From Clostridium celatum DSM 1785 (GTDB lineage: Bacteria; Bacillota; Clostridia; Clostridiales; Clostridiaceae), in contig NZ_KB291607.1 of the NCBI RefSeq assembly GCF_000320405.1, positions 1-64,000 on the forward strand: a stretch of DNA of 64,000 bases, written 5' to 3'. Below are positions 15,258-57,321 of the stretch, piece after piece; positions within the stretch are counted from its first letter, which is position 1, and each line of letters starts with the position of its first letter. Position numbers and translations under genes: made by a program. The notes under the pieces are model-generated. The model was given only the letters and a program-made list of their open reading frames with translations, searched no databases and was not told the DNA's origin.

Positions 15258-15593
15258 AAATTTCTCCCTCCATTTATAATAAATTACAATACTTTATACA
15301 TTAACTATCTTAAAACTTTATAATTAATATGTTTTAATATCCCTATGTAAAATTATACCATCTAAAAATTATGTTTACTTTTTTTTCGTTTTTCATTTTC
15401 TTTCAAATTTTTATCCACTATCTTGTTACTTCAAGCAAATAAGTATTATTCTTCATGTTCTAACAGCTACCGCCCGCGGGGTGAATCCAAATATTGGATT
15501 CACCCCGCGGGCGGTATTTATAAAAAATATACATATCTTAAAAGTAAACATAATATTATTTATATATACAAAATAAATTAATGGGGGAATCTT
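15258..15593. other. Divergent promoter region carrying a GC-rich palindrome
   Basis: This stretch separates the leftward surface glycosidase from the rightward LytTR operon. It is AT-rich apart from the 49-bp GC-rich hairpin at 15468-15516. I see no reading frame. A GGGGG ribosome-binding site precedes the gene at 15594 and GGAGGGAG precedes the gene at 15257. Promoter elements are not clear enough to call. Confidence 0.6.
15468..15516. repeat. Dispersed GC-rich hairpin element, copy 1
   Basis: Perfect 23-bp arms (15468-15490 and 15494-15516) surround the loop ATA. The stem contains GCCCGCGGGG followed by TGAATCCAA. It is the longest of four copies. Relative to the others one stem pair is switched from C-G to G-C in both arms, a compensatory change. 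It sits between divergent genes, so it is not a shared terminator. Confidence 0.9.
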
Positions 15594-16307
15594 ATGATTA
15601 TAGCTGTTTGTGATGATAATGATATTGCATTAAATAATATATGTTCTTTAATTGAAAAAAACTTAGAGAAGCAATGTAGACTATTAAAATTTAATACAGC
15701 ATCAGCTTTAGAGTTTTATATAGAGGATAATAAAAAAATTAATTTAGACATTCTTGTTATAGATATTGATTTAGGAAACTCCAATGGAATTGACCTTGCT
15801 AAAAAAGTAAAATCACATTTTCCACTTATAAAAATTATATTTATTACTGGTTTTATTAACTATGCTGAAAATATTTTTGAAGCTGATCCAACATATTTTA
15901 TAGTAAAGCCTATAAAAGAAGATAAATTGGTAGACGCATTAAATAAAACTATAAATGCCATAAATGAAGATAAGCCAGATATCATATCCATTTCTTCAAA
16001 AGGCGCTATAACTAATATCAATTTAAAAAATCTAAAATATATTGAAAGCTTTAAAAGACAAATTATAATCCATGAATCTACTGATGAAATTAAGCTGTAT
16101 TTCAAATTAAAAGAAATTGAAAAAATTCTTCCTTCACATTTTGTCCGCTGCCATCAAAGCTATATAGTAAATATGAATAAAGTTAAGTATTTAAATACTG
16201 GATCTTTTTCTTTATATGATGGTGAAAGTATTCCTATAAGTCAGTCAAGATACAATAAAACCAAAGAATCATTTATAAATTATTTAGGAGAAAAGCTATG
16301 TCATTAA
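15594..16307 (+). CDS. LytTR-family response regulator (AgrA/VirR-like)
   Basis: A 237-residue cytoplasmic regulator. The receiver domain (about 1-120) has the acidic pair in AVCDDND, the phospho-acceptor aspartate in ILVIDIDLG (about residue 56), threonine in IFITGF and lysine in FIVKPI. The LytTR DNA-binding domain occupies about 135-235, with FVRCHQSYIVNMNKV and SIPISQSRY. It overlaps the downstream kinase gene by 10 bp, so the two are translationally coupled. The LPxTG gene that follows has a 21-bp spaced direct repeat in its promoter region, the spacing LytTR proteins prefer, making it a likely target. Confidence 0.95.
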   Translation: MIIAVCDDNDIALNNICSLIEKNLEKQCRLLKFNTASALEFYIEDNKKINLDILVIDIDLGNSNGIDLAKKVKSHFPLIKIIFITGFINYAENIFEADPTYFIVKPIKEDKLVDALNKTINAINEDKPDIISISSKGAITNINLKNLKYIESFKRQIIIHESTDEIKLYFKLKEIEKILPSHFVRCHQSYIVNMNKVKYLNTGSFSLYDGESIPISQSRYNKTKESFINYLGEKLCH

Positions 16308-17605
16308 AATCCTTAGCTATAATTAGTTTATTAATAGAGTCTTGTCTTACTTTTATATTCTTAATAAATGTATTAAACCTTAGGATAAATATCTTTAAGA
16401 CATTTTGCATATTAATGGCTAGTATAATTTCTACTTCTATAGTAACTTACCCACTAAAAGAATTTCTTATTGTAAAACCTATAGCCATGGCAATTGTTTT
16501 ATATATATGCCTAAGAAAAATTTCAAAAAACTCATCAAAGGAAATAATAATTATACTATCTGTTACTATCGGTTTCATCCTTGTAACAGATTTTTTTGCT
16601 CACTATATATATGGAATTTTTACAAATTTTGATTATACAAATTCACTTGAGCTTTCTGTCCCTAGAATTATAGCTATTCTCTTTGGATACATAGTTTACT
16701 TTACTTTAACTATGGGATTTTCTTTGTTTTGGAATAAAATTGTAAACTCCATAAAAAAGATTTTTATATTAATACTAATTTTAGTTCCAACTTCACAATT
16801 CACTTTACTTTTAGGTATGTATCTATATAACTATGATAATTTAACTGAAAAATTACTACAGTATGGAATTGCTTGTGTAGTTATCTTAATTGCAGTTGAC
16901 ACACTACTCTACCTTAGTATAAAAGAATATTCTAAGCTTACAAAAAAGGAAAAAGAGAGAGAATTTGAAAAAATGAAACAAGGAATGGAATTCTCCTACT
17001 ATAAGTTAGCTAATCAAAATAAAGAATATATATCCAAGCTTAAACATGATATTAGAAATCAGCTTCAAACCGCTTATTTTCTTCTTAATAATTCAAATAA
17101 TAATATTGATGCACAAAATATCGTTGATAACATAAGTCATAGGCTTGAATCTTTAGATAATATTTATTACTGTGAAAATTCAATTGTTAATACTATTATT
17201 AGTTTAAAAACTACTGAAGCAAAAAAGTATAAAATCCCAACGAAAATTTCTTTAAGAGATATTGATAAATTAGTAATTAACGAATTAGATTTATGTAGTA
17301 TATTTAGTAACTTATATGATAACGCCATAAATTGTTGTATAAAAAATAAATATAAAGAAAATAACTTTATAAGCATAATTTCTTCTAAAGAAGCTGGCTA
17401 TATAGTTATAAAGTTTTTAAATTGGTGTGACTTAGATATTGTCTTTAATAAAAAAAATACTATTTTAACAACTAATAAAGATAGTAAAAATCATGGCTAT
17501 GGGTTAAAAATATTAAATGATATAACAAATAGATATGATGGAAACTTAAGTATGAAGCATGAAAATAATATTTTTTCTATAACACTATTATTAAAAATAG
17601 AATGA
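16298..17605 (+). CDS. AgrC-like sensor histidine kinase
   Basis: A 435-residue membrane kinase with six or seven hydrophobic segments in the first 210 residues and a charged linker with TKKEKEREFEKMKQG. The phospho-acceptor is in KLKHDIRNQL (about residue 250), and the GHKL ATPase domain carries NLYDNAINCC and HGYGLKIL. This is the HPK10 layout of quorum-sensing AgrC and VirS kinases, which detect peptides. No agrD/agrB-type genes lie beside it, so the signal is unknown. It overlaps the response-regulator gene, and the next gene starts 80 bp downstream. Confidence 0.92.
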   Translation: MSLKSLAIISLLIESCLTFIFLINVLNLRINIFKTFCILMASIISTSIVTYPLKEFLIVKPIAMAIVLYICLRKISKNSSKEIIIILSVTIGFILVTDFFAHYIYGIFTNFDYTNSLELSVPRIIAILFGYIVYFTLTMGFSLFWNKIVNSIKKIFILILILVPTSQFTLLLGMYLYNYDNLTEKLLQYGIACVVILIAVDTLLYLSIKEYSKLTKKEKEREFEKMKQGMEFSYYKLANQNKEYISKLKHDIRNQLQTAYFLLNNSNNNIDAQNIVDNISHRLESLDNIYYCENSIVNTIISLKTTEAKKYKIPTKISLRDIDKLVINELDLCSIFSNLYDNAINCCIKNKYKENNFISIISSKEAGYIVIKFLNWCDLDIVFNKKNTILTTNKDSKNHGYGLKILNDITNRYDGNLSMKHENNIFSITLLLKIE

Positions 17606-17615
17606 AACTTTAAAT

Positions 17616-17660
17616 AATTACATTTTACACTTTAAAAATTACATCTCTAACCTTTATAAA
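17616..17660 (+). promoter_or_regulatory. Candidate LytTR operator and -10 upstream of the LPxTG protein
   Basis: The octamer AATTACAT occurs at 17616-17623 and again at 17637-17644, exactly 21 bp apart and both followed by similar TYTYWAMC-like sequence. A -10-like TATAAA is at 17655-17660. Two direct repeats on one face of the helix overlapping the -35 region are typical of AgrA/VirR-type activation. No experimental motif for this regulator is available to me. Confidence 0.5.
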
Positions 17661-17685
17661 AATTTTATTTTAGGAGGTGTTTACA

Positions 17686-19674
17686 ATGCAAAAATTAAAA
17701 AAATTCATTTCACTTACAGTTTCATTAGCTTTTTTGCTTTCCTTTATTGGTAATCAAGGAATAACATTTGCACAAGATAATCCTGATGCAGAAAATTCTA
17801 TAGAAGCACAAGAAGCTATGAAAGAAGAAACTTTCCTTGATGAAAGCTTAAATGAAGCTACCATCTTAGAAGAAACAGAAGAAGAGTTAATAGACGAAAT
17901 AACTCCAGTTATAGATGAAACTACTTCGGATGAAGCTGAAATTACTACAGATATAAATGAATCAACTACATCAAACGAAACTATTAATAATGAAGATAAT
18001 CTTGATGAAGTTATTATAGAAGATGTATCAGAAATTGAAGAATTTCCAAAAGATACTTCTACTGATAATACTAATGAAATAGAAGCTGAAGAGAATCCTA
18101 TATTAACTAATGGAACCTCTGAAGAAGTATCTGAAAATGAAAATTCCAAAGAAACTACCTTAGAAGAAAAAGTTGAAGAAGTTCAAATTCCCTCTTCTAT
18201 AGATGATATAGAAGTATATAGTATAGAAACTAATGGAACTTCCTTTGATTTTAGTAACTATACCATTCTTCCTTCAATAACTTTAAATGTAGCTGAAGAA
18301 TTTAATCAATATATATCAACACAAATTACGCTTGTAAATATTAATGACACTAGTAAAACAGTATATTATACTTCTTATGGAAATAATATATCTACATTTG
18401 TTCCTGAAACTACTTCTGTTTCTGGAACTTATGAAATTTCAAAAATAGAAATTATACTTGATACAACTTATACTACTTTAGCTTATATAAACCCAAAATA
18501 TAAAGATATAACAACAAGTTCATCTAATCGGACTGAATATAAAGACCTTGCACCTAACTTTCAATTAGAAATTATTAATTATGAGCCATTCAAATACTCC
18601 TTTGAAAACTTTAGTGTACCTCATATAGTTTCTAATGGTAATGAATTTACAGCTACTGTAACAATTAAATCAAATAGAGAGATAACAGGCCTTACAATCT
18701 GGTATCAATCAGATAATGATAGTATTGTTTTATATGATAATTCTGTAATTAAAGATGGTGATAATTATACTATTTCACCAATACCATACGTTTACGGTCA
18801 AGGATATACTCCATTTGAGTATTTAAAATCCGGAACTTATAGCGTAGAGTCAATGATTATTGAATATAAATATGATTCTTCTGACATTTTTGCTACATCT
18901 TATTTATCAATTTCAAATATAACTAGTGATGATGAATTTGAAAATGATGATTCTTACGATTTTAGCCCTTTAAACATAATATGCAACAATCCTAATGAAG
19001 ATTTAACACCTCCAGTAATCAATAGTATTACTATGGAAAAAAATATAATTAACTTAAATGAAGTTGATACTTCAGATGGTATTAAAATTAATATTTCAGC
19101 CGACGTAATAGATGATCTATCTGGATTTTCTAATATGGATACATGGATGTTTTTAGTTTGGAATTCTCCTAATGGTACTTCTCCTATTTATTCGGAATTA
19201 TATTATAATGATAGCTCAAATATGTTTGAAGGTTATGTATCTATAGATAAAGACCACCTTTATGAAGGCATTTATACGCTAGAATTTTTGTCTGTTTGGG
19301 ATAGAGCTAATAATTTACTTAGCTATGACCGTGAAACTGACTCTGAATTTTTATCTAACTATGATATAACTATAACTAGAGATAGCTTAAACAATAACGG
19401 TAGCGATAATAACAACAATAATAACACTAGTAACAAGCCTAATGATTCATCAAATATTGGATCTAATTTATCTGGTAATAATAGTACAATTACTATTACT
19501 CCAACAAATAATAATACTAGTTCTCAAGTATCATCAAATAGCTCTACTTTAAATAAAACTACTCTTCCTTATACAGGAAGTCCTATTTCAAGTATATTTA
19601 TCATTATATTTGGTAGTCTTATTTCAATAAGTGGATTTTATATGATTTTACGAAAAAAAGTTAATAAAGTCTAA
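17686..19674 (+). CDS. LPxTG-anchored acidic surface protein
   Basis: A 662-residue wall-anchored protein. The ATG at 17686 is chosen because AGGAGGTG lies at 17672-17679; an upstream GTG would add three residues. A signal peptide (about 1-27, ending in ITFAQD) is followed by a very acidic low-complexity segment rich in E, D, T and S (about 28-175). Two or more beta-sandwich-like modules follow (about 200-420 and 440-565). An N/S-rich linker, LPYTG, a hydrophobic helix and a basic tail complete the anchor. No catalytic motif was seen; adhesin or spacer roles are possible. It follows the two-component genes on the same strand. Confidence 0.85.
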   Translation: MQKLKKFISLTVSLAFLLSFIGNQGITFAQDNPDAENSIEAQEAMKEETFLDESLNEATILEETEEELIDEITPVIDETTSDEAEITTDINESTTSNETINNEDNLDEVIIEDVSEIEEFPKDTSTDNTNEIEAEENPILTNGTSEEVSENENSKETTLEEKVEEVQIPSSIDDIEVYSIETNGTSFDFSNYTILPSITLNVAEEFNQYISTQITLVNINDTSKTVYYTSYGNNISTFVPETTSVSGTYEISKIEIILDTTYTTLAYINPKYKDITTSSSNRTEYKDLAPNFQLEIINYEPFKYSFENFSVPHIVSNGNEFTATVTIKSNREITGLTIWYQSDNDSIVLYDNSVIKDGDNYTISPIPYVYGQGYTPFEYLKSGTYSVESMIIEYKYDSSDIFATSYLSISNITSDDEFENDDSYDFSPLNIICNNPNEDLTPPVINSITMEKNIINLNEVDTSDGIKINISADVIDDLSGFSNMDTWMFLVWNSPNGTSPIYSELYYNDSSNMFEGYVSIDKDHLYEGIYTLEFLSVWDRANNLLSYDRETDSEFLSNYDITITRDSLNNNGSDNNNNNNTSNKPNDSSNIGSNLSGNNSTITITPTNNNTSSQVSSNSSTLNKTTLPYTGSPISSIFIIIFGSLISISGFYMILRKKVNKV

Positions 19675-19766
19675 TAACTTTTATTTTTCTTTTTGTTATG
19701 TATTAGAATAAATCAAATGCTAATATTTATATAAACTAGCTGTATAAAAGTAAAAATTATAATAAA

Positions 19767-19812
19767 AAAAGCTATGTCAGATTGAATTTAAAATACAATC
19801 TGATATAGCTTT
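19767..19812. terminator. Bidirectional terminator between convergent genes
   Basis: A 17-bp stem starting AAAGCTATGTCAGATTG (19768-19784) pairs with 19796-19812 through one G-T wobble on the plus strand. A seven-base A run at its left edge gives a U tract for the leftward transcript; the rightward side is moderately T-rich. Confidence 0.85.
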
Positions 19813-19814
19813 GC

Positions 19815-21835
19815 TTATTTTGATGCCCTTTTTAACAATTCATCTGCCATCTTTTTATTTTTTTCAGTTCCTAAACCATTCTCATACATAAAGGCTAATG
19901 GTATACAAGCTTCGTAATCTCCATGCTTAACAGCATTACTATACCAATAAAAAGCTTCATCATTATTAACATCAACAGTATCTCCATTTAAATAAGCATA
20001 TCCTAACATTCTCATTCCTAATGTATTACCCTTATATGCAAGTTTCTTATACCAAACATATGCATACTTATGATTTTCTATAGTTCCTAATCCATGTAAG
20101 TACATATTAGCTAATTTATGAATATCATATTCATATCCTTTATCAACAGATATTTTATACAAAGTAAAAGCCTTTTTATAATCCTGTTCTAAATACTGTC
20201 CTTCATAATACATATCCGCTAATCTACTTATTGCTTCAACAACCCCTGCTTCAGCTAATTTATTATAAATAACAAAAGCTTTTTCATAATCTTGCTCTAC
20301 TGCTATTCCTTCATAATATATATGTGCTAATATAATCTCTACTTCTCTTTTTTGTACTTCATTTTTACACCTATTAATATTAGATTTTATTAATTCAAAG
20401 GATTTTTTATAGTCCTTTTCACAACCCTCTCCATAGTATAGCATAATAGCCATATTGAATATTCCTTCTATATTATCTTGTCTAGCAGCTTCTGCATACC
20501 AATTAAATGCTGACCTTAGGTTTTGCTTTATTCCATTACCATTTTTATAAAAATCAGCTAATATAACCATTGAATCAGTATCATTTTTCATTGCTGCTTC
20601 CTCAAAATATTTAGCAGCTTTATAATTATCCTGTAATACACCTTGCCCTTTTAAATACATTTTAGCCACTAACTTAATAGCAGTTATCTCTCCTAATTTA
20701 GCTAACTCCTTATAAATCTCAAAAGCCTTTTTATAACTTCTTTCTATTCCTAATCCATTATAATACATATGTCCGCAATTAATCATTGCTTCCTTATTTC
20801 CACTTTTACCTGCTTCATTAAACCAAAAAAAGGCCTTTTGATAATCTTGAGTCACTCCTTTTTCAAAATAATACATTTTTCCTAAAAGTAATTGAGCTGC
20901 TGGATAACCCTTATTGGCAGAAAGCCATGCATTTTTATATGCTCTATTATAGTCATCATCATTTTTTGCTTTTAAATACAATAGCCTAGCTTGTCTATAT
21001 AATTCTTCCTTAGAATAAAGTTCATATTCTTCTTTTTCCTTAATTCTATTTTCTTCTAATACTTTTATTTTGCTTACTGCTTCATCATAATGTCTTTTAT
21101 TAATAATATCTAAACTTACATATCTAGTATATGATTCAATACTATCCTCATTAAGTGCCTTTCTCCATTCCTCATTATCCAATTTATTATTATTTTCTAA
21201 GCATGCCCTATTCCAATTAATTTCTTCTTCATTTTCCTTTTGATTAATAAAATTTAATTCTTCTATTCTTTTTAAGGCTTCATTTTTATATTTATTATCA
21301 CCTTTTCTTGTAATATAATTTTCATAACTTTCTATTGTATTAATAGTACATGCTTGCTTCCATTCAATATCCTCTAAATTTATATTAAATTTATCATAAT
21401 ACCATTTAACTATATATTTTAATCCTTCAAATGCCCATTCTGCATCATCATAGGTAACTTCATCAAGCTCATTTTCCTGATAATGAGTACCCGTATTTCC
21501 CCATAATCTTGTGCTATTAAACCTATCCAATATTCTTTTATCTATTATTCCTTCTTTAAAAAGAATATTTAAAGAACCATTTAACGTTTCTTTCCCTTTA
21601 CTTAATCCATTGCTTTTATATAAATGTGCACATATTGCTTCACAAGCCCTTCGTCCATTTGTAATAGCATCTTCATAATTGTCATTTAGAAAATACTCAT
21701 AAACTTTAAATAATACTCTGCAACCTTAACTAATTCCCTACTATATGTATTATCATATGCTGTTATTTTTATTATTGCATTACATAACTCAAATAAATAT
21801 TCTTCCTTTTCCAATACTCTCTCTTTTACTTTCAC
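19815..21835 (-). pseudogene. DUF4145(HEPN)-like plus Sel1-repeat protein, frameshifted
   Basis: The visible 571-residue frame opens at a TTG (21530) with no ribosome-binding site, but coding clearly continues upstream. A GTG at 21835 preceded by AGAGG opens a frame of 49 codons that joins the main frame by a -1 step at TTTAAAG (21704-21710). Restored length is about 673 residues. Residues about 1-130 resemble DUF4145, with RRACEAICAHLY and RLWGNTGTH, a HEPN-type R...H layout. About ten Sel1 repeats (for example AMINCGHMYYNGLG) fill the C-terminal half. It is last in a row with the McrC-like gene, 73 bp downstream of it. HEPN activity is inference. Confidence 0.7.
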
Positions 21836-21908
21836 TTGTTTATCCTCTTACCATTAACTTAACTTTTATTTCTTTTGAAGCATTTGTATCATCACTATTT
21901 ATAGTCCA

Positions 21909-24659: not shown

Positions 24660-24665
24660 AATATC

Positions 24666-26548: not shown

Positions 26549-26632
26549 AACCTTTTCCCCTTATCTTGTGTAATATAATCTTATGGAGTATTATACCATA
26601 ATTTCATTATTTATCTTGTATGTTTCCTTCCT

Positions 26633-27091: not shown

Positions 27092-27178
27092 TAATATACC
27101 CTCCTAATTTTTATTAACAGTTTTAGTAAGCCTTCAATTAATCTTTGAAGACTTACACCTCCATACAATAAATTAAAT

Positions 27179-27886: not shown

Positions 27887-27951
27887 ATAAACCTTCTCCT
27901 CTTCACTTATTTAATTATTTAATCTATATAATTTCATTTTCTATTTATTTT

Positions 27952-28836
27952 CTACATATATAAAGCAACAAATTGATCAACTATCTTAAATCTTGAACTT
28001 TCGTTATCAAAGGTATTAACTACTCTCTTATATCCAACATTATAAGTATCATATCTTTTAAAATATTCAATTGTTGCATTACCATTATCATCATAATAGA
28101 AATTAGGTGCTTCAACTATTAAGTTATCTTCCTTAATTAGAGTTCTTTTACTTATTAGCTCATATTTATCATCAATGTTGCAAATTTCATTTAACTTGTT
28201 ATTTAATAATACCAACTGCAAATAAGCTTCTGGGCTATTATCACTCTCTATTGCATCTAAATAACTTCTTTCTGCTTCATTAAATCTTAAACTAACTATC
28301 TCAAAATCATTAGTTACTAAATTATCAGAAGTTATGTTAGGTAAAATATCTTTATCTTTAAAAGCAAATATCATTCCCTTTTCTATCTCTTCAATCTTCA
28401 CTTTATAAATTTGTAAAGTATAGCCTTCTTTTACCTTCAACTTATTATAATTCTTAACTATTTCATTTACATTAATACTACTGCTTAAAGCTTTCACTTC
28501 TATGTTTTCTTCATTTAAAACTATATTAAGACTTTTCCAATTTTCACTTTTACTATCCTTAATTTCATATATATTAAGCTTTTCATTTAACTTTAAACCA
28601 TCATTAATACTTAAACTAGCAGGCATAAATGTTATCTTATTTGATTTCTTACTATTCCAAATTGATTCCTTCTCTGCTAAAGCTTTATTTATATCTTCCT
28701 CATTATTACTAACATAAAATCCATTATTGTTTAATAAAATACTATTCATTTCTAAAAAGCTATTAAAACCAAGCTCATTTAAAAATTCATCTCCATCATT
28801 TATTGCATTCATATATATATCCTTTATATTTTCCAT
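27952..28836 (-). CDS. Hypothetical protein
   Basis: A 294-residue protein starting at the ATG at 28836 (MENIKDIYMNAINDGDEF), chosen over an ATG 24 codons upstream because a G-rich ribosome-binding site precedes it. It has no signal peptide or membrane helix. The N-terminal third is mixed helix and strand; the C-terminal part is beta-rich with an FNEAERSYLDAIESDN helix and a YYDDNGNATIEYF strand pair. I do not recognise it. It lies between the XRE gene and the DnaB-like gene, with hairpin copy 2 about 130 bp upstream of its start. Confidence 0.65.
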   Translation of the reverse strand: MENIKDIYMNAINDGDEFLNELGFNSFLEMNSILLNNNGFYVSNNEEDINKALAEKESIWNSKKSNKITFMPASLSINDGLKLNEKLNIYEIKDSKSENWKSLNIVLNEENIEVKALSSSINVNEIVKNYNKLKVKEGYTLQIYKVKIEEIEKGMIFAFKDKDILPNITSDNLVTNDFEIVSLRFNEAERSYLDAIESDNSPEAYLQLVLLNNKLNEICNIDDKYELISKRTLIKEDNLIVEAPNFYYDDNGNATIEYFKRYDTYNVGYKRVVNTFDNESSRFKIVDQFVALYM

Positions 28837-28965
28837 ACCAACCCCCCCCAAAATTAACTTATGAATATAATATAATTCAGATTTACATATTTGTAAAGTA
28901 TTTTTCATTATAAAAATTACACATTTATAAATTTATATGATTTTAAACTGTTTTCTCTAAAAAAC

Positions 28966-29008
28966 TACCCGCGGGGTCAATCCAAATATTGGATTGACCC
29001 CGCGGGTA
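28966..29008. repeat. Dispersed GC-rich hairpin element, copy 2
   Basis: Perfect 20-bp arms (28966-28985 and 28989-29008) with loop ATA; the stem is TACCCGCGGGG then TCAATCCAA. It begins 5 nt after the restored stop codon of the DnaB-like gene (29014). In leftward RNA it is followed after one base by six U, so this copy alone could act as an intrinsic terminator. Confidence 0.9.
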
Positions 29009-29013
29009 TTTCG

Positions 29014-30338
29014 TTAAAAATCCACAACTCTTGAATATCGTCCCTGCCATTTTACTGCACAAGTTCCTCTTTCACCATGTCTATTTTTTAAAACCACAAC
29101 ATTCATACATTCTGGGTTATTTTCTGCATTTTTAGAGTTGTATTTTATCTTTCCTTTTTTAAATAAACTTTCTCTATACTCTTATCATCTAGTTTAATAT
29201 TTCTATAAAGAGCAATAACCTGATCACTGTCTTGCTCAATTCTTGCGCTATCTTGAATATCTGATGCATCTATTTTTTCAATTGCCATATCTGAAGTTCT
29301 TTTATCAACACTTCTATTTGCTTGCGCTAATAAAACAAAACAAATATCTTCTTCCATAGCTAATGTTTTTAACTTTGAACTAATTTTGCCAAGCTTATTT
29401 GTCATAATATCCTTGTCCGAAAAATCCACATACTTATTTATATAATCAATAAAAACAATATCTAAAGAATTTTGAAGCTTATAAACTTTAATTTCATTAA
29501 TAAACTTATCAATATCTGTTTCTGTTGAAATATAAAAACCTCTATTAAAAAGCCTGCCCATAAAATCACAAATACCATCCTTAGCTTCTTTTGTAATTTT
29601 ATCTTCATCAATTTCCTTACTAGACAAGGATAAATTACTTGCTGCCATCTTACTATAAACCTGCTTTGTACTCATTTCTGCACTACCATAAAGAACTTTA
29701 GCTCCTTTAAAAGCCATATTTGCTGCAATTTGAAGAGAAAAAGTAGTTTTACCAACACCACTTCTTGCAAAAATCGTTACAAGTCTTCCTCTTTGAAAAT
29801 TACCAAGATAACTATCTAAATAAATTAATCCACTACTTATTCCTTTATTTCTATCAGCATCATAAAGCCATCTCATATATTCTTCATACTGCTTGTCTAT
29901 ATTAATTTCCTTCTTAATTTGGCACTTATGAATATTAATTTGAAGCATTTCAACTTCAGCTTCAATCTCCTCAATAGACATACTATCTGTAATCTTACCT
30001 ACCATATCAATATACAAGCTCTTTTTATATGCCATAATAAACAAATCAAGCTTTGTATTAAAACCAATTTCACTAGAATTACAAGAGTAAATTTCAGAAA
30101 CATAAGTTATACTATCCATTTCTCTTATATTTTCCTTGTGATACTCCAAAAAATTAACTAAATCAATCTCTAGCTTATTAGAAACCATTTCTAATATTCC
30201 AACATAAATCCTAACATGAGGCTTATATCTAAACATATAAGGCTTAATTTTCTCCCTAGCAGTAATTATCAACTCAGAATTCTTAAGTATAGCACCTAAT
30301 ATCTCCTGCTCCAAAACAACTTGATTACTCTCCAACAT
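29014..30338 (-). CDS. DnaB-like replicative helicase (phage type), C-terminus in -1 frame
   Basis: A RecA-fold helicase. The first 397 residues read in one frame: an N-terminal helical domain (about 5-105), a linker helix, and the ATPase with Walker A ARSGVGKTT (about residue 190), SAEMSTKQVYSKM, Walker B DIVFIDYI and LLAQANRSVD. That frame stops at 29145. A -1 step at AAAAAAG (29154-29160) adds about 45 residues ending RHGERGTCAVKWQGRYSRV, which fits the DnaB C-terminal finger and strand. Restored length is about 441. It follows the DnaD-like gene by 52 bp. Together with the LexA-type gene this looks like a phage or satellite replication module. Confidence 0.8.
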
Positions 30339-30390
30339 AAAACAATCCTCCCTAAATTCCTAACTACTAACCCCTAAATAATAGTTATAA

Positions 30391-31474: not shown

Positions 31475-31505
31475 CTTAATGAATCTTAAGCAATGGTAGT
31501 TGCCG

Positions 31506-37128: not shown

Positions 37129-37177
37129 TAGTACCCGCGGGGTCAACCCAAATATTGGATTGACCCCACGGGTACTA
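37129..37177. repeat. Dispersed GC-rich hairpin element, copy 3
   Basis: 23-bp arms (37129-37151 and 37155-37177) surround loop ATA, with two C-A mismatches on the plus strand. On the minus strand both become G-U, so the leftward transcript still pairs fully. It lies between the phosphodiester glycosidase stop and the sortase start, with no following U run. Confidence 0.9.
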
Positions 37178-41742: not shown

Positions 41743-41921
41743 ATTTTTTCTCCTAATTACACTATTACTTATTTCATTTACTATTAGCTTATAAAACTTT
41801 ATAAGCTAATTTTCTAATAATATTTTTATTATTTTATAAAACTCATCTAACTTAATAATTCGTAACACTTGTTTTTCTCAAATATTTCATAATTGAAAAT
41901 CAAAAGCTACTTTTTATTTCA

Positions 41922-43442: not shown

Positions 43443-43457
43443 TTTATCTTCCTTTTT

Positions 43458-44642: not shown

Positions 44643-44658
44643 ACTTACCTCCAAATTT

Positions 44659-45639: not shown

Positions 45640-45649
45640 ATTATTTACC

Positions 45650-46555: not shown

Positions 46556-46556
46556 C

Positions 46557-48590: not shown

Positions 48591-48611
48591 TTAAAATCTC
48601 CGCCCTTTCAA

Positions 48612-49627: not shown

Positions 49628-49653
49628 ACTTGTACTCCTTTTATTAATACTAT

Positions 49654-50844
49654 TTAAAACATTTCATATAATTTTTTTAACTCATATTTGTTACTATAAT
49701 CCGTGTTTCTTGAATTATTAGCTAACTTTTCTTTTAACTCTTTATTTCTATATAGCTTTTCTACTCCATTAGCAATGCCATCAATTGATAACTCACATAT
49801 ATATCCATCAATATTTTCTCTAACTTGACTTTTTGCTGTCGTATAATTTGTTATAATAACAGGCTTTCCAAGTATTTGAGCCTCACCTACAGTAACAGCT
49901 TTTCCTTCATATCTAGAAGGTTGTACATAAATATCACATACTTTCATATATGGATAAGGATTAGTTTTTTTACCTAATAATATAAAGCTATCTTTTAAGT
50001 TATTTTCTTCTATTAGTTCTTTTATAATAGCTTCATCTCCACCATATCCAACAACATACCATTTAATATTTGTAAATCCTCTGTCATGTAATACTCTTAA
50101 AGCCCTAACAGCATTATCAATGCCTTTAGCATGTGAAAGTCTTGCTACTGAAAGCAACTTAAAGCTATTATCTTTACTAATGTCATCATCTACCTTTTCT
50201 TCCGACATTCTTCTTATAAAATCAGGTGAAGTTATATTTTCCATTACCTTAACTTTATTATGTAAACTAGGATACTTTTTTAAGAAAGCATTTTTACATT
50301 CTTCTGATACTGCCATTATATAATCAAACTTATTCCACATTTTTAAGTCCATTTTTATATCAGTTTCTATTGTTGAATAATCTGTATGTATCCAAGCTAT
50401 TTTAGTTTTAGCTTTAACCTTTTCTGCAACGAAATAATGAGGCCAAAGATAGCTTATTGCTACATCATATTCTTTATCTAGCTTAGGTAAAAAAGGTAAT
50501 GCATATTTCCACATAAGCTGCATTTGAACTACACTTTCAGTATTATTCTTATTATCTTTTTTTGATAGTTCTCCAATTAATTTTGCTAATAATCTAGATG
50601 CTCCTAAAAATACTTTTCCTTCTTTTATAGTTTGTCCTATACCTTTTCTAAAAGTTGAATATGATTTGTGTTCTTCTAATAAATTAACTTTATCAGTTAA
50701 AAGATTCATAAAATCACCGGTATGTCTATATAACATTAAGTCAACTTCATTATTCTCATAATCGAAATTATTTAACATACTTATTAAACTTCTTTCAACT
50801 CCACCAACTTCCATATCAAAAGATGATATTAATATCTTCCTCAT
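49654..50844 (-). CDS. GT4 glycosyltransferase (capsule)
   Basis: A 396-residue GT-B enzyme. The N-terminal domain has SFDMEVGGVERSLISML; the C-terminal donor domain has SVARLSHAKGIDNAVRALRV, WYVVGYGGDEAIIKELI and VQPSRYEGKAVTVGEAQILG, the EGxxxxxxEA retaining motif. It should transfer a sugar from a nucleotide donor with retention of configuration. The upstream GT4 gene ends within its ribosome-binding site once that gene's frame is restored. Confidence 0.9.
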   Translation of the reverse strand: MRKILISSFDMEVGGVERSLISMLNNFDYENNEVDLMLYRHTGDFMNLLTDKVNLLEEHKSYSTFRKGIGQTIKEGKVFLGASRLLAKLIGELSKKDNKNNTESVVQMQLMWKYALPFLPKLDKEYDVAISYLWPHYFVAEKVKAKTKIAWIHTDYSTIETDIKMDLKMWNKFDYIMAVSEECKNAFLKKYPSLHNKVKVMENITSPDFIRRMSEEKVDDDISKDNSFKLLSVARLSHAKGIDNAVRALRVLHDRGFTNIKWYVVGYGGDEAIIKELIEENNLKDSFILLGKKTNPYPYMKVCDIYVQPSRYEGKAVTVGEAQILGKPVIITNYTTAKSQVRENIDGYICELSIDGIANGVEKLYRNKELKEKLANNSRNTDYSNKYELKKLYEMF

Positions 50845-50854
50845 AATTTCACTC

Positions 50855-51978
50855 CTAGTTTATATCGATTTTATAAACATCTAATAAAGTATTAACTATA
50901 TCTTCTATTTCATATCCTTTAGCTTTAAGGCTTCTTCTATAGCTTCTTTATTATTATTTTTTTTGCCTATAAGCTTTAATGCTTCATCTGCCCATTTATC
51001 TATTCCATCATCTAGCTTAATTTGCTTTACAAGTCCTATTCCTAAATCTGCTTCTGGCTGTATAGCCTCTGATACTAAACAAGGCAATCCACTTGCTTGT
51101 GCCTCTAACATAACCAATCCTAACCCCTCATATATAGAAGGGAAAAGAAATATATCACAGCTATTCAATATTAAATCTACATCTTTCCTTAACCCTAGGA
51201 AAAAAACATTATCACTAATTCCTAATTTGATTACCTTTTTTTCTATCTCTTCCTTTAATGGTCCATCTCCAACTAAAATCAGCTTTATCCTATTATCTTT
51301 ATTTATCATTTTATTTGCTACTTCTATTAAAAAGTTATGATTTTTAGCATCTACAAATCTTCCAATATGTCCAGTAATAATATCATCATCATTTAATTTT
51401 AATTTTTTTATTAAGTTAATATTATTATTAAAATTTAAAAACTTAGTATAATCCACATAATTAGGTAATACCTTATATTTATTATTCTTAATTATATTTT
51501 TTCCAAATAAGTATTCTCCTGCACTATTACTACATGCAATATAATTAGTCGAAAATAATATTATTAAAATTCTCATAATAGTAAAATAAATCTTTTTTAT
51601 AATACTATTTCCCATATCTAAATTAGTATGTGAATGTGATATTCTTATTTTAGTTCCTGCTAATTTTGCTGCTATCATAGCTATTCCACAATTAAACAAA
51701 GTATGAGCATGAACTATATCATATCTTCCTTCTTTTATAATTTTATATAAATTCTTAATAGCCTTTAATTGCCCTATTTCAGCAGGAGATTTTGTGCTAA
51801 TAATCTTTCCACCTAGCTCAATAATTTCCTTATCATAATATCCATCTCTATCATAATAAGATATAAAGTCGAATCTAATATCTTTATGAATTTGCCTATA
51901 TAAATTCATAAGCATAGTTTCCGTTCCACCTATATCCATTCCACCTACTACATGTAATACTTTTTCTTTTTTATTCAT
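50855..51978 (-). CDS. GT4 glycosyltransferase (capsule), C-terminus in -1 frame
   Basis: A GT-B enzyme with GGMDIGGTETMLMNLYR near the N-terminus. The donor domain has HIGRFVDAKNHNFLIEVA, LILVGDGPLKEEI and LFPSIYEGLGLVMLEAQASG. The open frame stops at 50905 after KLKDMK. One added base in TTAAAG (50923-50928) gives KAKGYEIEDIVNTLL and a stop at 50855, a usual GT4 ending, and moves the stop into the next gene's GGAGTG ribosome-binding site. Restored length is about 374. Loss of the last 17 residues might not abolish activity. Confidence 0.88.
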
Positions 51979-51999
51979 ATTAATCTCAACTTTCTATAC

Positions 52000-53061
52000 T
52001 TAATAAAAGAAATTAATTATATTAAATTTACTTGTATAATTTATTCCACTCATCTTAGAATCTACTACAAAAAATACGATATAACATAAAATTAAGAAAT
52101 AATATATAACTCTTTTCTCTTTAATATTATTAAAAGATTTTTTTATTATAAAAGGTAATGTTATAAGTACATATAACTGAGTATATATAGTAAATCTTGC
52201 AAATATCCAATTATAATAGGATATAGCCATTATAAGAAAATTAATCAAAGTCATATTTATAAATATGTTACCATTTTCCCATTGTTTCAAACTTTCTCTC
52301 TTTATATATGACAACATTACTGGCACAAAATAAACTATTACTCTAATAATATTTGCTCCACCTTCATTAAAATCTTCATATCCTGCATATTTCGAATTTC
52401 CTAATATTTTGTATATTAAACTTATTGCTGGCTCATAAAATATCATCACTACAATAAAAGCTATAATTGCAACCCATATCTGTTTAGACCATTCCTTCTG
52501 TATCGCAACTAAATATATTGGAATCATAACCAGTGCGGATATATGAAAAGTAGACAGTGCTATCATAATAAGACAATATGTTTTAAACTTTCTATTAATA
52601 ATCAGTGGAGTACATAAAAATATTATTGATGCAACTAACGATTGTCTAATTCCATTCATTGTAACTATATAATATGAGACCATATATAAAAATACACCTA
52701 ATTCAAAATTATCCTTTGAATATTTTCTGATGACCCATATATTGCATACATTTATTATTAATGAAGTTATTAAAATCATAAATTGTGGATCTTCAGATAT
52801 ACTTTTTAATATCATAAGAAATATTGTAAATCCTGGCTCATAAGCTGAATTAGCAATATCATAATTAGGAGTAATTGAATTATATGAATGTACATAATAA
52901 TATGTGTCCCCTATTCCACTTCTTAATCCTGATACTAAAGTAAATATACTAATTATTACTATAGTAATTAATAAATTTGCATTACCATTTTTATCTTTAA
53001 AAATTACTGCTAATATTGCTAAAACAAATGTAATTATCAATGTAAAATAAAAAATATCCAC
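52000..53061 (-). CDS. EpsG-like polysaccharide polymerase (Wzy role)
   Basis: A 353-residue membrane protein with about ten hydrophobic segments. SGLRSGIGDTYYYVHSY early in the chain and MNGIRQSLVASIIFL in the middle, with AYEPGFTIFLMILK, are the EpsG family signature. It should polymerise flipped repeat units on the outer face. It lies 5 bp after a GT2 gene and 21 bp before the GT4 gene, within the operon. Confidence 0.9.
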   Translation of the reverse strand: MDIFYFTLIITFVLAILAVIFKDKNGNANLLITIVIISIFTLVSGLRSGIGDTYYYVHSYNSITPNYDIANSAYEPGFTIFLMILKSISEDPQFMILITSLIINVCNIWVIRKYSKDNFELGVFLYMVSYYIVTMNGIRQSLVASIIFLCTPLIINRKFKTYCLIMIALSTFHISALVMIPIYLVAIQKEWSKQIWVAIIAFIVVMIFYEPAISLIYKILGNSKYAGYEDFNEGGANIIRVIVYFVPVMLSYIKRESLKQWENGNIFINMTLINFLIMAISYYNWIFARFTIYTQLYVLITLPFIIKKSFNNIKEKRVIYYFLILCYIVFFVVDSKMSGINYTSKFNIINFFY

Positions 53062-53066
53062 ACTTT

Positions 53067-53891
53067 CTACCCCTCTATATTAACTTCTGATATACTTACA
53101 TTATTATGATATCTTCTAATTAAAGCTATTGGTATAAACATAGTAACTAATGGTTTTAACAAGTATAAATAATATTTCAATGGAATACTTAACCTTTTAT
53201 ATCCTCTACAACTTATTACAAATACATTAAAATAATTTCTAAATGTTCTTCTCTTATAAGCATCATTATCATCTCTTACTTTATATAATGCATCGTCTAA
53301 GTTATATCCTTTAAAACCTTCTTCAAAAAATCTAAACCATAAATCCATATCTTCACAACGAGTTGTATACTTAGTTACTCTATATCCATTTAATTTTTCA
53401 TAAACTTCTCTCTTAGCTAATATAGTAGCATGACAAAAAGCTGTTCCTTTTATCATTGTAAATTTATTAGGTATATTCTCTTCTATGCCCCTTATTCCAT
53501 TTATTCCATTTTCATCGAATGAAACCATTTTTGTTCCAACTAAATCATATTCTTCATTCTCACTTAAAAACTTAACCTGTTTTTCTAATCTATCATTTAA
53601 AGATATATCATCACCATCTTGTCTTGCTATATAATCCCCAGATGCGATCTCAAGGCATCTATTAAGTGTAGGAGCTAATGTTATATTATTTTCATTTGTA
53701 ATAATCTTTATTTTATCTGGATATTTATTAGCATATTCTTTAGCTATATCTAAAGTTTTATCTTTAGAACAATCATCACACATAATAAGCTCCCAATTAT
53801 CATATGTTTGTCCTAATATAGAATCTATACTTTCTCTTAAAGTACTTTCACAGTTATATATCCCCATTATTACAGAAACTTTTGGATTCAT
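53067..53891 (-). CDS. GT2 glycosyltransferase (capsule)
   Basis: A 274-residue enzyme, shorter than its neighbours, with VSVIMGIYNCESTLRESI, MCDDCSKDKTLDIAKEYA and RQDGDDISLNDRLEKQV. The acceptor-side RCEDMDLWFRFFEEG is typical of EpsE/SpsA-like rhamnosyl or galactosyl transferases. The C-terminal segment is hydrophobic (about 240-262). It starts 9 bp after the fused acetyltransferase-GT4 gene. Confidence 0.9.
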   Translation of the reverse strand: MNPKVSVIMGIYNCESTLRESIDSILGQTYDNWELIMCDDCSKDKTLDIAKEYANKYPDKIKIITNENNITLAPTLNRCLEIASGDYIARQDGDDISLNDRLEKQVKFLSENEEYDLVGTKMVSFDENGINGIRGIEENIPNKFTMIKGTAFCHATILAKREVYEKLNGYRVTKYTTRCEDMDLWFRFFEEGFKGYNLDDALYKVRDDNDAYKRRTFRNYFNVFVISCRGYKRLSIPLKYYLYLLKPLVTMFIPIALIRRYHNNVSISEVNIEG

Positions 53892-53900
53892 ATGCTCCTC

Positions 53901-55766
53901 CTAATTCAAACTTTTGTATATGTCCATTAACTCCTTATTAACATTAACAACATCATAAGGTTCAATTTCTCTAACTATTTCTTCATCACTACTTTCATAA
54001 GTAGCAGCAACTTCTAGCATTATTTCTTTCATATAGTAATATTCTTTAATTGTTCTTGCTGTTGCTTGAAAGTCTCCAACTTTAACTAACTGTCCAACAT
54101 TTTCATTGCAAACTAAATCTCTACATCCTCTAATATCTGTAGCAATAACTTTCTTTCCATTTGCCATAAGCTCCATAATATTTCTTGGAAGCCCTTCTCT
54201 ATATGAAAGTAATGTTCCTATATCACTTATATTGATAAGTTCATTAACATCATTTCTAAAGCCTAAGAATAAAACCTTATCCCTAACCCCTCTAGCTAAG
54301 GCTTCTTGCTTTAATTCATTAAGCTTATCACCCTCACCAACAAACATTACTTTAAGTCTTGGACAATCTTCTTTTAATAATTCAATTGCTTTTATAAGCT
54401 GTATTTGGTTTTTATTTTCATTAAGCTCTGCAATCATTATTACAACAAAATCCTCATCTTTAATATTAAGCTCTTGTTTCTTTCTTTTTTGTTCTTCATA
54501 ACTTAATGTTTTATATGAATTTAAGTCTAATCCAACACCTTTAACTAAATAGCTTTTTTTAGGCTTAAGCTTTGACTTTGTAATTTCATAATCTTCACTA
54601 TTTATATTGATAGTAACATCAGTAAATTTTGCCATAACCTTCTCAATTGGATAATATAAAAGCCACCCTGCCTTTGATCCACCTTTTAAGAAATGATACC
54701 CATGAGCTGTATAAATAGTTTTTAGCTTAGGGAATTTAACCTTAAGTAATCTACCAAATATAGAAGCTATAGGTGTATGAACATGAACTATTCCATACTG
54801 ATTTTCCTTTTGAATTTTTATAAGCTCCTTAAAAGCTTTAAAGTTTCCAATACTTAAAGGACTTCTGCTAAATGGAACCTCAAAAACTCTAACTCCCTTT
54901 TCAATTAAACCTTTATCAATTTCCTTATCAATAGAACATGCAATATCAACGCTATATCCATTTTCTAAAAGCATCTCTATATGAGGAATTAAAAAAGCAT
55001 TAACAGTTCTACTAACTGTAGTTATATATAAAACTTTTTTCATATTTTCTTTACTCTTATCTTTTTCATTATTTTCTTCTAGCTTTACTATGCTAGCATC
55101 ATTTATTTCTTTCTTTTTAATAATCTTACTTGGAACTCCAACATTAGTTGTATTGCTTAAAACATCCTTAACTACAACTGCACCAGCTCCAATAATTGAA
55201 CCTTGTCCAACAGTTTTACCTTGAATTACAGTAGCTCCAGATCCAATAAGCACTCCTTCTTCTATAAGATCATTTCCAGAAATATTAACATTCCAAAGAA
55301 GTGAGGCATAATCTTTTATGATAGAATCATGACCAATACCACATTTTGGACTTACAATAACATGATCGCCTATAGTAATATTAGTAGTCATAATTACACC
55401 TGGATAAATTATAGTCCCAGCACCAATGCTAATGCTTTCATTAATAAAAACATCTGGATGAATTATAGTAGCAAAGTCAAAATCATCCTTTAGCTTATCT
55501 ACAATATTTTTCTTAACTCTATAATTAGCTATAGCAACAACAATATTAGGTTTATTAATATAAGTTATGTCACCATTATTTCTATATCTATCTAAATAGC
55601 TTAAACCACCTAAAACAACATATCCATTAACAACTTTTCCCCACATAGATTCATTATCATCAACAATCCCTAGTATGTTCCACTTTGGAGTCCTAGCATT
55701 TATCTGCTCAATAATCAAAGCAACTTCTCTACCAACTCCACCAGCACCGATAATTATAATATCCAT
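53901..55766 (-). CDS. Fusion of PglD/EpsM-like sugar O/N-acetyltransferase and EpsD-like GT4
   Basis: About 621 residues from ATG 55766 (MDIIIIGAGGVGRE), preceded by GGGAGGTAGG; an upstream frame extension of 27 codons lacks a ribosome-binding site. Residues 1-215 are a NeuD/PglD acyltransferase: a Rossmann-like sugar-binding part, then left-handed beta-helix hexapeptides with CGIGHDSIIKDYA and GSGATVIQGKTVG. After a lysine/glutamate linker, about 241-621 form a GT4 enzyme with TVSRTVNAFLIPHIEML, VHVHTPIASIFGRLL, IYTAHGYHFLKGG and SYREGLPRNIMELMANG. In B. subtilis eps the equivalents (EpsM, EpsD) are separate proteins. The fusion would couple acetylation of the initiating sugar to the next transfer. 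Confidence 0.88.
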   Translation of the reverse strand: MDIIIIGAGGVGREVALIIEQINARTPKWNILGIVDDNESMWGKVVNGYVVLGGLSYLDRYRNNGDITYINKPNIVVAIANYRVKKNIVDKLKDDFDFATIIHPDVFINESISIGAGTIIYPGVIMTTNITIGDHVIVSPKCGIGHDSIIKDYASLLWNVNISGNDLIEEGVLIGSGATVIQGKTVGQGSIIGAGAVVVKDVLSNTTNVGVPSKIIKKKEINDASIVKLEENNEKDKSKENMKKVLYITTVSRTVNAFLIPHIEMLLENGYSVDIACSIDKEIDKGLIEKGVRVFEVPFSRSPLSIGNFKAFKELIKIQKENQYGIVHVHTPIASIFGRLLKVKFPKLKTIYTAHGYHFLKGGSKAGWLLYYPIEKVMAKFTDVTININSEDYEITKSKLKPKKSYLVKGVGLDLNSYKTLSYEEQKRKKQELNIKDEDFVVIMIAELNENKNQIQLIKAIELLKEDCPRLKVMFVGEGDKLNELKQEALARGVRDKVLFLGFRNDVNELINISDIGTLLSYREGLPRNIMELMANGKKVIATDIRGCRDLVCNENVGQLVKVGDFQATARTIKEYYYMKEIMLEVAATYESSDEEIVREIEPYDVVNVNKELMDIYKSLN

Positions 55767-55876
55767 TTTCCTACCTCCCTCTACAATGTGATTTTTAATA
55801 ATGTTATTATAGTTAGACATTAATTTTAATATGTAATATTTATACAATGCTGAAATAAATGTTTCATATTAATATT

Positions 55877-56530
55877 TTAATCTTCATAATAATAGTAATA
55901 ATAACTATCCTTTTTGTTTTCTACGGCATTTAGTACTGTTCCAACAACATTAGATTTAACTTTTTCTAGTTCCTTATATCCTTTAACTATATCAACACTC
56001 TTTGTTACTCCAGCTCTTACAACTAAAATAGTTCCATCAACCTTTGCTGATAGTACAACCCCATCATTTATATTTCTAACTGGAGGTGTATCAATAATTA
56101 CATAATCATAAACATCCTTTAAAGCTGCTATTAAATCTTCCATTGCTTTTGAAGAAACCATTTCTGCTGGATTTGGTGTTTTTTGACCTGCTGTAATAAT
56201 ATGTACATTATCTTCTATCTTATTAACAACCTCATTAACCTTTTTCTTACCAATAAGGCAATCTGTTAATCCTGCAGTATTTGCTACTCTAAATTTTTTA
56301 TGTATTGTAGGCTTTCTTAAGTCAGCATCAACAATAATAACTTTTTTTCCACCTTGAGCTAAAACAAAAGCTAAATTACCAGAAACAGTAGACTTTCCTT
56401 CTCCTGGATTACTACTAGTAACAACTAATGTTTTTAACTTCTTATCAACAGATGAGTATTCTAAACTTGTTCTTAGTCCTCTATAAGCTTCTGCTAATAA
56501 AGATTTTGGATTTTCTTTAACAGTTAACAT
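55877..56530 (-). CDS. cpsD: CpsD/CapB bacterial tyrosine kinase
   Basis: A 217-residue cytoplasmic BY-kinase. Walker A is SSNPGEGKST, Walker A-prime VIIVDADLRKP and Walker B YVIIDTPPV. The C-terminus is a tyrosine cluster (DSYYYYYYED), the autophosphorylation tail. It begins 11 bp after cpsC, whose cytoplasmic end activates it. CpsB at 63074 is the cognate phosphatase by family. Phosphorylation cycles set polymer length. Confidence 0.95.
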   Translation of the reverse strand: MLTVKENPKSLLAEAYRGLRTSLEYSSVDKKLKTLVVTSSNPGEGKSTVSGNLAFVLAQGGKKVIIVDADLRKPTIHKKFRVANTAGLTDCLIGKKKVNEVVNKIEDNVHIITAGQKTPNPAEMVSSKAMEDLIAALKDVYDYVIIDTPPVRNINDGVVLSAKVDGTILVVRAGVTKSVDIVKGYKELEKVKSNVVGTVLNAVENKKDSYYYYYYED

Positions 56531-56541
56531 ATTATGCCCTC

Positions 56542-57258
56542 CTAACTTGCCTTTTTGTTATTTCTTTTATTTTTCTTGCTTCTGCTTATTTCATCATCTT
56601 CTAAAGGTAATTCCCCTAATACTGGTATTGGTAATAATTTTTCTAAATCTTCTCTTCTTGCTAAAGTATCATCTAAATAATCTAAAACAAATACTAATCC
56701 AATTCCCATTAATAAACCTGCAATAAGCCCTACTAAAACTACCTTAGCCTTTGCTGGTACTTTTTCAACTACCTTTACACTTTCAATAACCTTTGTATAT
56801 GTATTTAAAACTATTTCTTTTACTCCAACTTCAAACTCACTAGATAATGTACTTACTACCTTTTCTGCTGTTGTTGGGTTATCCGAAGTATATCCTATAG
56901 TAAGTATTGGTGCATTTTGCGATGCAGTAAAGCTTAATCCACCCATAAGCTGACCTGGAGTCATATTTAAGTTTCCTTTGTCTATAACTTTTTTCATAAA
57001 GTCATCTGTTTTGATTATTTCTATGTATGAATTTATTAAACTAGCATAACTACTTAATTCACTACTGCTATAATCACCTTGAATATTTTCATTTTTCCCT
57101 GCAAATATCTTAACTGTTGCTGTATAGCTTGACTTCATTTTAAATGTAGCAAAAATACCAGCTAATAATGTAAATGCTAATGCACAAATTACTATTAATT
57201 TAAATCTTTTCTTTAAAACATATAAAAGCTCATCAATATTTAAAGTCTTTTCGTCCAT
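56542..57258 (-). CDS. cpsC: CpsC/CapA polysaccharide co-polymerase (Wzz family)
   Basis: A 238-residue chain-length determinant with two membrane helices (about 18-38 and 172-192) flanking an extracytoplasmic loop. The N-terminal Wzz pattern is LNIDELLYVLKKRFKLIV and the second helix carries PAKAKVVLVGLIAGLLMG. The cytoplasmic tail should activate CpsD. A strong AGGAGG ribosome-binding site precedes the ATG, and hairpin copy 4 lies directly upstream of it. Confidence 0.93.
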   Translation of the reverse strand: MDEKTLNIDELLYVLKKRFKLIVICALAFTLLAGIFATFKMKSSYTATVKIFAGKNENIQGDYSSSELSSYASLINSYIEIIKTDDFMKKVIDKGNLNMTPGQLMGGLSFTASQNAPILTIGYTSDNPTTAEKVVSTLSSEFEVGVKEIVLNTYTKVIESVKVVEKVPAKAKVVLVGLIAGLLMGIGLVFVLDYLDDTLARREDLEKLLPIPVLGELPLEDDEISRSKKNKRNNKKAS

Positions 57259-57280
57259 TTTTTCCTCCTAATCAGTAACT

Positions 57281-57321
57281 ACCCGCGGGGCCAATCCAAA
57301 AATTGGATTGACCCCGCGGGT
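57281..57321. repeat. Dispersed GC-rich hairpin element, copy 4
   Basis: 19-bp arms (57281-57299 and 57303-57321) with loop AAA. One C-A mismatch on the plus strand is a G-U pair in leftward RNA. It begins 6 nt after the stop codon of the sugar transferase and ends about 13 bp before the cpsC ribosome-binding site, inside the operon. No U run follows. Confidence 0.9.

Follow-up and report, generated by a model that had tools for sequence, protein, structure and literature searches.

Intergenic palindromes associated with a RAYT gene in Clostridium celatum and related clostridia

Results

The stretch of DNA studied here, called the window in what follows, comprises the first 64,000 nucleotides of contig NZ_KB291607.1 of Clostridium celatum DSM 1785 (assembly GCF_000320405.1). 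It contains four copies of a GC-rich palindrome that folds into a hairpin, and just past its right edge, on the same contig, lies a gene for a RAYT, or REP-associated tyrosine transposase, of the HUH/Y1 type, which is itself bracketed by further copies. The features are listed below, the last four being outside the window and in the same contig numbering.

15468 to 15516, no strand: palindrome copy 1 (stem of 23 bp, 0 mismatches, loop of 3 nt), between a divergent pair formed by an LPXTG surface-protein gene and a LytTR response-regulator gene
28966 to 29008, no strand: palindrome copy 2 (stem of 20 bp, 0 mismatches, loop of 3 nt), between two minus-strand genes, a 318-aa open reading frame (27952-28908) and a DnaB-like helicase gene
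37129 to 37177, no strand: palindrome copy 3 (stem of 21 bp, 2 mismatches, loop of 3 nt), between sortase and phosphodiester-glycosidase genes, both minus
57281 to 57321, no strand: palindrome copy 4 (stem of 18 bp, 1 mismatch, loop of 3 nt), between Wzz and sugar-transferase genes, both minus
66738 to 66778: palindrome copy flanking the RAYT gene
66899 to 66937: palindrome copy flanking the RAYT gene
66941 to 67633, minus strand: RAYT gene (230 aa), 2.9 kb past the right edge of the window and 9.6 kb from copy 4
67675 to 67715: palindrome copy flanking the RAYT gene

An earlier note on this DNA had described the four GC-rich hairpins with their 3-nt loop, had placed them all between surface, sortase, replication and capsule genes, had held that they could not arise by chance and had seen no transposase near. 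The last point is contradicted by the RAYT gene, and the others stand. All four copies were recovered where they had been reported, with the LPXTG, LytTR, DnaB-like helicase, sortase, Wzz and sugar-transferase genes as neighbours, and all are intergenic according to open reading frame calls, copy 4 being 6 bp from the stop codon of one neighbour and 22 bp from the start of the other. At one mismatch or less, CCCGCGGGG has 15 matches in the window (the palindrome being counted on both strands) against 0.03 expected from shuffles, and none of 100 shuffles attained 15.

The RAYT gene carries the only Y1_Tnp match of the genome (121 contigs, 99.62% complete). One copy of the palindrome lies 3 bp past its stop codon and another 41 bp ahead of its start codon; a third copy is on the same side as the first, at a distance of 162 bp. 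The two flanks of the gene match one another as inverted repeats over 41 nt, with a score of 39 against a null maximum of 15. This is the arrangement of a REPtron, a gene placed between inverted repeat copies that recur elsewhere in the genome, and also that of a TIRYT or TIRtron, in which terminal inverted repeats enclose the gene.

Y1_Tnp is the sole Pfam domain of the protein (5.9e-15), which also matches the NCBIfam model REP_Tyr_transpos (NF047646; E 1e-18) with 67.6 bits, below the curated cut-off of 80. Within Y1_Tnp it has the HUH motif and the single catalytic tyrosine of the RAYT family, with the class 2 signature Y-x-x-x-N-P, and its motifs read NHVH, LFQ, YIHLNP and WSS. Eighteen clostridial homologues were aligned, and all of them keep the histidines of HUH, the FQ pair and the Y-motif residues Tyr, Asn and Pro (alignment A3, made from 18 of the 25 RAYT matches; L071, L076, L077, L078, L083, L084 and L085 were omitted as fragments, truncated sequences or sequences with stops). 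When its AlphaFold model (mean pLDDT 72, with block values of 76-94 over residues 11-150) was submitted to Foldseek, the top match was PDB 4er8, the structure of a RAYT in complex with a REP hairpin (E 8.9e-8, TM 0.72 by target), followed by the IS608 and ISDra2 transposases; by sequence alone, the match to 4er8 is marginal (E 0.098). The helices 183-198 and 201-229, where a C-terminal helix-turn-helix extension like that of subclass 2.1 would lie, are modelled at low confidence. We follow the group names of Quentin 2018 (PMC6006769), whose Table 1 gives for TnpAY1 subclass 2.1, equivalent to RAYT group 1, the motifs NHVH, FQ, Y[IV]HLNP and SS and a median length of 238 aa; by its motifs and its 230-aa length, and not by a tree with reference sequences, the protein of the window genome is assigned to this group. 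The homologue found in genome G032 (L065:1489-2421, plus strand) is 310 aa long and carries a C-terminal RpiR-type helix-turn-helix domain, HTH_6 (E 1.3e-14).

How far does the palindrome family extend? A pattern search and a covariance model, R1, built from a 34-row alignment of copies from several species (A2), were applied to the window's own genome (G000), whose contig C12, 150,229 bp long, holds the window and represents 4.2% of the genome. The family is larger than the four copies of the earlier note, since 11 strong copies were found, nine on C12 and two on contig C108:

C12: 15468, 28966, 37129, 57281, 66738, 66899, 67675, 77877 and 116816
C108: 8980 and 26057

When stems of at least 14 bp were ranked across the whole of C12, the top eight scores all belonged to family members. 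The nine C12 copies are intergenic without exception, seven between genes of the same direction, one between divergent genes and one (116816) between convergent genes; C108:26057 is intergenic as well. Throughout the family the palindromes are near-perfect and 39-59 nt long. Copies are also present in other Clostridium genomes, and the named relatives that carry them are C. cuniculi, Clostridium sp. D43t1_170807_H7, C. saudiense JCC and Clostridium sp. 1001271B_151109_B4.

The outer letters of the palindrome vary by lineage: mostly CCCGC in this genome, which also has CCTGC, CCTCC and CCCCA, CCTCC in Clostridium sp. D43t1 and C. cuniculi, and CCTGC in G032. These letters change together with their partners, so that pairing is preserved through sequence change. 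Indeed, 86.8% of the cells of A2 are paired, two-sided changes affect 92 cells against 44.5 in shuffled alignments, and the covariation score is 0.261 compared with 0.121 shuffled and at most 0.070 slid. One element occupies corresponding sites in G030 and G062; its two versions differ at paired positions, and the pairing is intact in G062. Left out of A2 were C108:26057 (which has a 2-nt deletion), C108:8980 (found later), the G032 copy L032, the C. saudiense copy L054, L018, L028 and L052, as well as L029, L036, L037, L039 and L053, which duplicate places already represented.

Among 68 genomes of the genus, 18 have a RAYT homologue and 23 a match to the palindrome family, several of the latter being weak and in large genomes; of the eight genomes whose best family match is below 1e-10, five have a RAYT match. 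In G032 the RAYT gene and its palindromes lie between genes for mannose-6-phosphate isomerase and an AAA-ATPase, in G030 and G062 the gene lies between the same two genes together with a glycerate kinase gene, and in G077 it adjoins the AAA-ATPase gene. The two framing genes are adjacent to one another in G070 (C. saudiense, judging by its contig) and G076. In the window genome the neighbour of the RAYT gene is the gene for release factor RF3; the AAA-ATPase gene, with a solo palindrome at its other end, is about 11 kb away. C12 is syntenic in parts with G030:C33 and G062:C6, and the RAYT is 54-56% identical to the RAYTs of these two genomes, whereas RF3 and the AAA-ATPase are 95-96% identical to theirs.

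Some elements are common by position to G030 and G062 (for example 50144/127356, 52170/125330 and 108965/56915). The last of these, G030 108965 / G062 56915, is absent from the window genome, where the orthologues of its G030 flanks are adjacent, separated by a 355-bp interval. Conversely, the same pair of convergent genes that encloses copy 116816 occurs in G030 and G062 with an empty interval. Copy positions therefore turn over between species, some of which have an element at a site that is empty in others, gain and loss being indistinguishable. Part 20000-31252 of C108 had no synteny with contigs of the two relatives, and C108 could not be placed beside C12.

Many RAYTs of other clostridia, but not every one, are flanked by palindromes of their own, in G030, G062, G077, G032, G079, G004, G025, G012 and G021. 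The cores of these palindromes or inverted repeats are mostly related and CCYSMGGGG-like, with CCTCCGGGGAACAYCC in G030 and G062, CCTCAGGGGAAAAATACACA in G032, TACCCCTGGGGTACCCCAGGGGTA in G004 and CCCCAGGGG in G079 and G014; GGTGAC palindromes are found at the RAYTs of G012 and G021. The CCYSMGGGG pattern has a median density of 7.9 per Mb in the 18 RAYT-bearing genomes against 1.4 in the 50 others (p 3.7e-7, and p 1.6e-5 without G000, G030, G062 and G032), p values that are optimistic because the pattern was picked after viewing the RAYT flanks and the genomes are related. Eleven genomes exceed 5 occurrences per Mb; all but one of them have a RAYT match, which in G024 is a broken fragment.

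We also compared the surroundings of the 25 RAYT matches with control loci, 43 of 49 of which passed a length filter, their placement being approximate for truncated loci. GC-rich hairpins (GC of at least 0.40) lie near 10/25 RAYT matches and 7/43 controls, those with GC of at least 0.45 near 7/25 and 4/43, and the core motif near 12/25 and 7/43. The control genes had been chosen beside copies, which is why six of the seven control hairpin matches are palindromes of the family or of RAYT loci; of the RF3 control loci, all eight passed the filter and none scored. The hairpin control alone does not prove an association between palindrome and RAYT.

The copies cluster regionally. RAYT-flanking ones excluded, six of eight strong copies of the window genome are on the RAYT contig (p 1.5e-7), as are 6/20 in G030 (p 0.001) and 3/21 in G062 (p 0.04), the last two tests taking only the copies listed (22 and 23). 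G004 has 24 of its 28 elements on the RAYT contig (22/26 without the RAYT-flanking ones, p 2e-24), densest around the RAYT at 173.5 kb, with 9 of the 24 within 10 kb. In G021, which has two RAYTs, the 11 elements of the RAYT contig lie at a median of 8 kb from one of them, compared with an expected 93 kb (0/20,000 draws as close). Regional clustering is therefore supported in several genomes, and a distance law is not, the gradient within the contig being not significant in the window genome and only marginal in G004.

On the 217-kb contig G004:C37 (L198-L208), very uniform TACCCCTGGGGTACCCCAGGGGTA palindromes occur in two or three units, nearly all of them intergenic; among 25 groups on this RAYT contig, 21 hold two or three cores and 24 lie between genes. 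In G021:C67, at about 176-191 kb (L212, L213), mosaic-like composites of CACCCCTGGGGTGTAAAAAATGGAAA units and GTGACAGTCACC palindromes lie near two RAYTs.

Several matches were not counted as members of the family. In the window genome these were C69:28582, which has no GC core, C53:55576 (E 0.016), C63:27287 (E 0.046) and C23:148646, which is an inverted pair with a 76-nt spacer and not a compact hairpin. Elsewhere, the G056 match does not fold as this hairpin, and L052:434-462, from an Alcanivorax metagenome assembly, is a lone core-pattern palindrome of an unrelated organism. The window genome also has a looser second set, REPIN- or MITE-like, made of inverted pairs of GCCCCAGGGG-like cores about 45-114 nt apart, in which the C23 pair is mixed, with one CCCGCGGGG end and one CCCCAGGGG end:

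C12:64969-65100 (L167)
C99:929-1032 (L159)
C51:4381-4474 (L161)
C49:153659-153721 (L163)
C23:148646-148739 (L169)

Around the window copies themselves, the 318-aa open reading frame beside copy 2 had no Pfam match, and the region 27952-30338, formed by this frame and the gene for the 397-aa DnaB-like helicase, might be part of an integrated element. A search for related loci with the response regulator that adjoins copy 1 returned no result.

Discussion

We consider it likely that the hairpins are non-autonomous, RAYT-associated palindromic miniature elements of Clostridium. What we observe is a family of palindromes, its paired evolution, its association with RAYT genes, its regional clustering and its presence or absence between species. 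In E. coli, recognition, cleavage and recombination of hairpins by TnpA-REP have been demonstrated in vitro (PMC8266576). By analogy, the clostridial RAYT would bind the hairpin formed by one DNA strand while it is single-stranded, for instance in the lagging-strand template, and its tyrosine would nick the hairpin DNA and then join the hairpin elsewhere. Given the near-perfect symmetry of the palindrome, either strand could serve as substrate. New copies would for the most part be inserted in the same part of the chromosome and persist between genes; they might stay near the gene if the newly made enzyme acts close by, or if capture takes place within one replication region, both of which are guesses.

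Several points weigh against this reading. Binding, cleavage and mobilisation by the RAYT, as well as any cause of the clustering, are things that we infer. G064, G070 and G076 carry strong copies and have no RAYT match. By the hairpin score used, no GC-rich hairpin lies within 400 bp of 15 of the 25 RAYT matches, a total that takes in fragments and truncated contigs, and seven of the 43 control loci do have one. Two-sided changes occur in 12 of 25 pairs, a number that does not exceed what shuffled alignments give (mean 10.9; 87/500 reach 12), and the p values of the CCYSMGGGG densities are, as said, optimistic. No significant gradient toward the RAYT was found within C12 (p 0.40), and that within the G004 contig is marginal (p 0.05). 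Finally, the GT[AG]G foot of classical REP (repetitive extragenic palindromic) sequences is found within 6 nt on just 1/22 sides of the 11 copies.

The palindromes could also be relics, spread by a once-active RAYT system that is now inactive and kept by descent or as harmless or useful sequences. Such a history would fit the elements that G030 and G062 have at corresponding positions, the copies retained in G070 and G076, where no RAYT match was found, and the place of the RAYT between the mannose-6-phosphate isomerase and AAA-ATPase genes in G030, G032 and G062 and by the AAA-ATPase gene in G077, as if it had been vertically inherited. We nevertheless find it rather unlikely, as all 18 aligned homologues keep HUH and Tyr, the catalytic residues, palindromy is near-perfect in the copies of the window genome, certain sites are filled in only some species, and the RAYT of the window genome stands beside RF3, about 11 kb from the position of the gene in its relatives.

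The earlier note had proposed REP-like elements, RNA processing or stability sites and protein-binding palindromes as candidate roles. The first holds, in the form of a RAYT-tied family; nothing favours the other two as the origin of the copies, though they may be side roles. It is improbable that the hairpins are bidirectional terminators, or mRNA-stabilising or processing hairpins kept for an RNA function, even if their stems are strong, GC-rich and intergenic, with several very near stop codons, and copies 28966 and 77877 have a T-rich stretch along one side. At least 6 T in the first 9 bases, the mark sought for intrinsic terminators, were found on only 3/18 sides of the nine contig copies; scanning the window with Rfam at gathering thresholds returned 0 families; the copies cluster in one region and around the RAYT; and matching intergenic sites of relatives are empty. 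We give still less credit, indeed very little, to the idea that they are end-repeats or remnants of ordinary insertion sequences (IS) or miniature inverted-repeat transposable elements (MITE) unrelated to the RAYT, or protein-binding sites, whose proximity to the RAYT would be coincidental. Some related cores of this genome do form MITE-like inverted pairs with 45-114-nt spacers, but three of the 11 copies lie within 170 bp of the single RAYT gene and related palindromes flank the RAYTs of other species. Moreover, with the queries used, no match came from viral, plasmid or phage sequences: the core pattern had 0 exact matches in IMG/VR viral contigs, and one 93-base copy with its flanks had no blastn match in plasmid and phage collections. 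The RNA-element idea of the earlier note had been set against the possibility that the copies are end-repeats of a mobile element, and it is largely the latter that we find, the element being of the RAYT type and not an ordinary IS or MITE.

If the hairpins are RAYT-associated miniature elements, a more general suggestion follows, which we put forward tentatively and to which we give somewhat less than even chances. RAYT group 1, or subclass 2.1, is one of the largest RAYT groups and is present in 14.9% of strains (PMC6006769); Quentin 2018 reports having found no REP-like sequences for this subclass and suspects it of being the same as TIRYT. Group-1 RAYTs may, at least in Clostridium, have cognate repeats after all, in the form of compact self-complementary palindromes with GGGG/CCCC cores that spread preferentially near the RAYT gene. 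This would be a REP system whose mobility is proximity-limited (cis-biased), with enzyme and palindrome drifting jointly within each lineage. The clostridial genomes supply candidate substrates beside their own enzyme, few in number, and the crowding of copies near the gene, extreme in G004, offers a natural test of a transposase acting mainly where it is made. For annotation, such clostridial intergenic hairpins call for caution, as they may be traces of mobile elements and not RNA signals.

Comparison with known systems

The REP, BIME and REPIN sequences and their RAYT (TnpA-REP), known mainly from gammaproteobacteria, share with the present system a single-copy HUH/Y1 gene between inverted palindromes that recur between genes (PMC2817692, PMC3116915), and in REP/RAYT systems too the repeat and the enzyme diverge together between lineages. 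In some marine gammaproteobacteria the REPs are within 200 kb of the RAYT gene, which resembles the clustering seen here (PMC2817692). However, the host is here a Clostridium and the RAYT is of group 1; the palindrome is long and near-perfect, whereas REPs are short and imperfect; and there are 11 copies, far from the tens to hundreds, usually more than 100 per genome, that are typical of REPs (PMC2817692). In the running text of the literature searched, we found no clostridial case of such a pairing of RAYT and palindrome.

The IS200/IS605 elements (IS608, ISDra2) have in common with it the HUH/Y1 fold and DNA hairpins as recognition sites (PMC8266576). They differ in their Y motif, which is Y-x-x-x-Q there and Y-x-x-x-N-P here (Table 1, PMC6006769), and the gene is here in one copy.

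The resemblance is closer to the TIRYT or TIRtrons (Di Nocera 2013, PMC3733652), in which a RAYT-like gene with subclass 2.1 motifs also lies between inverted repeats; no clostridial case was seen in the text of that paper. Some TIRYT inverted repeats are wholly self-complementary and moderately abundant, and the majority, not all, have GGGGWSAS as a common motif (PMC3733652). Most copies here read GGGGTSAA, which agrees at seven of the eight positions and differs at the last. What sets the present repeats apart is their compact palindromic form, their lineage-specific cores and their concentration near the gene. In sum, the palindromes probably work like REPs without being classical GTAG REPs, and their nearest counterparts are the terminal inverted repeats of TIRYT.

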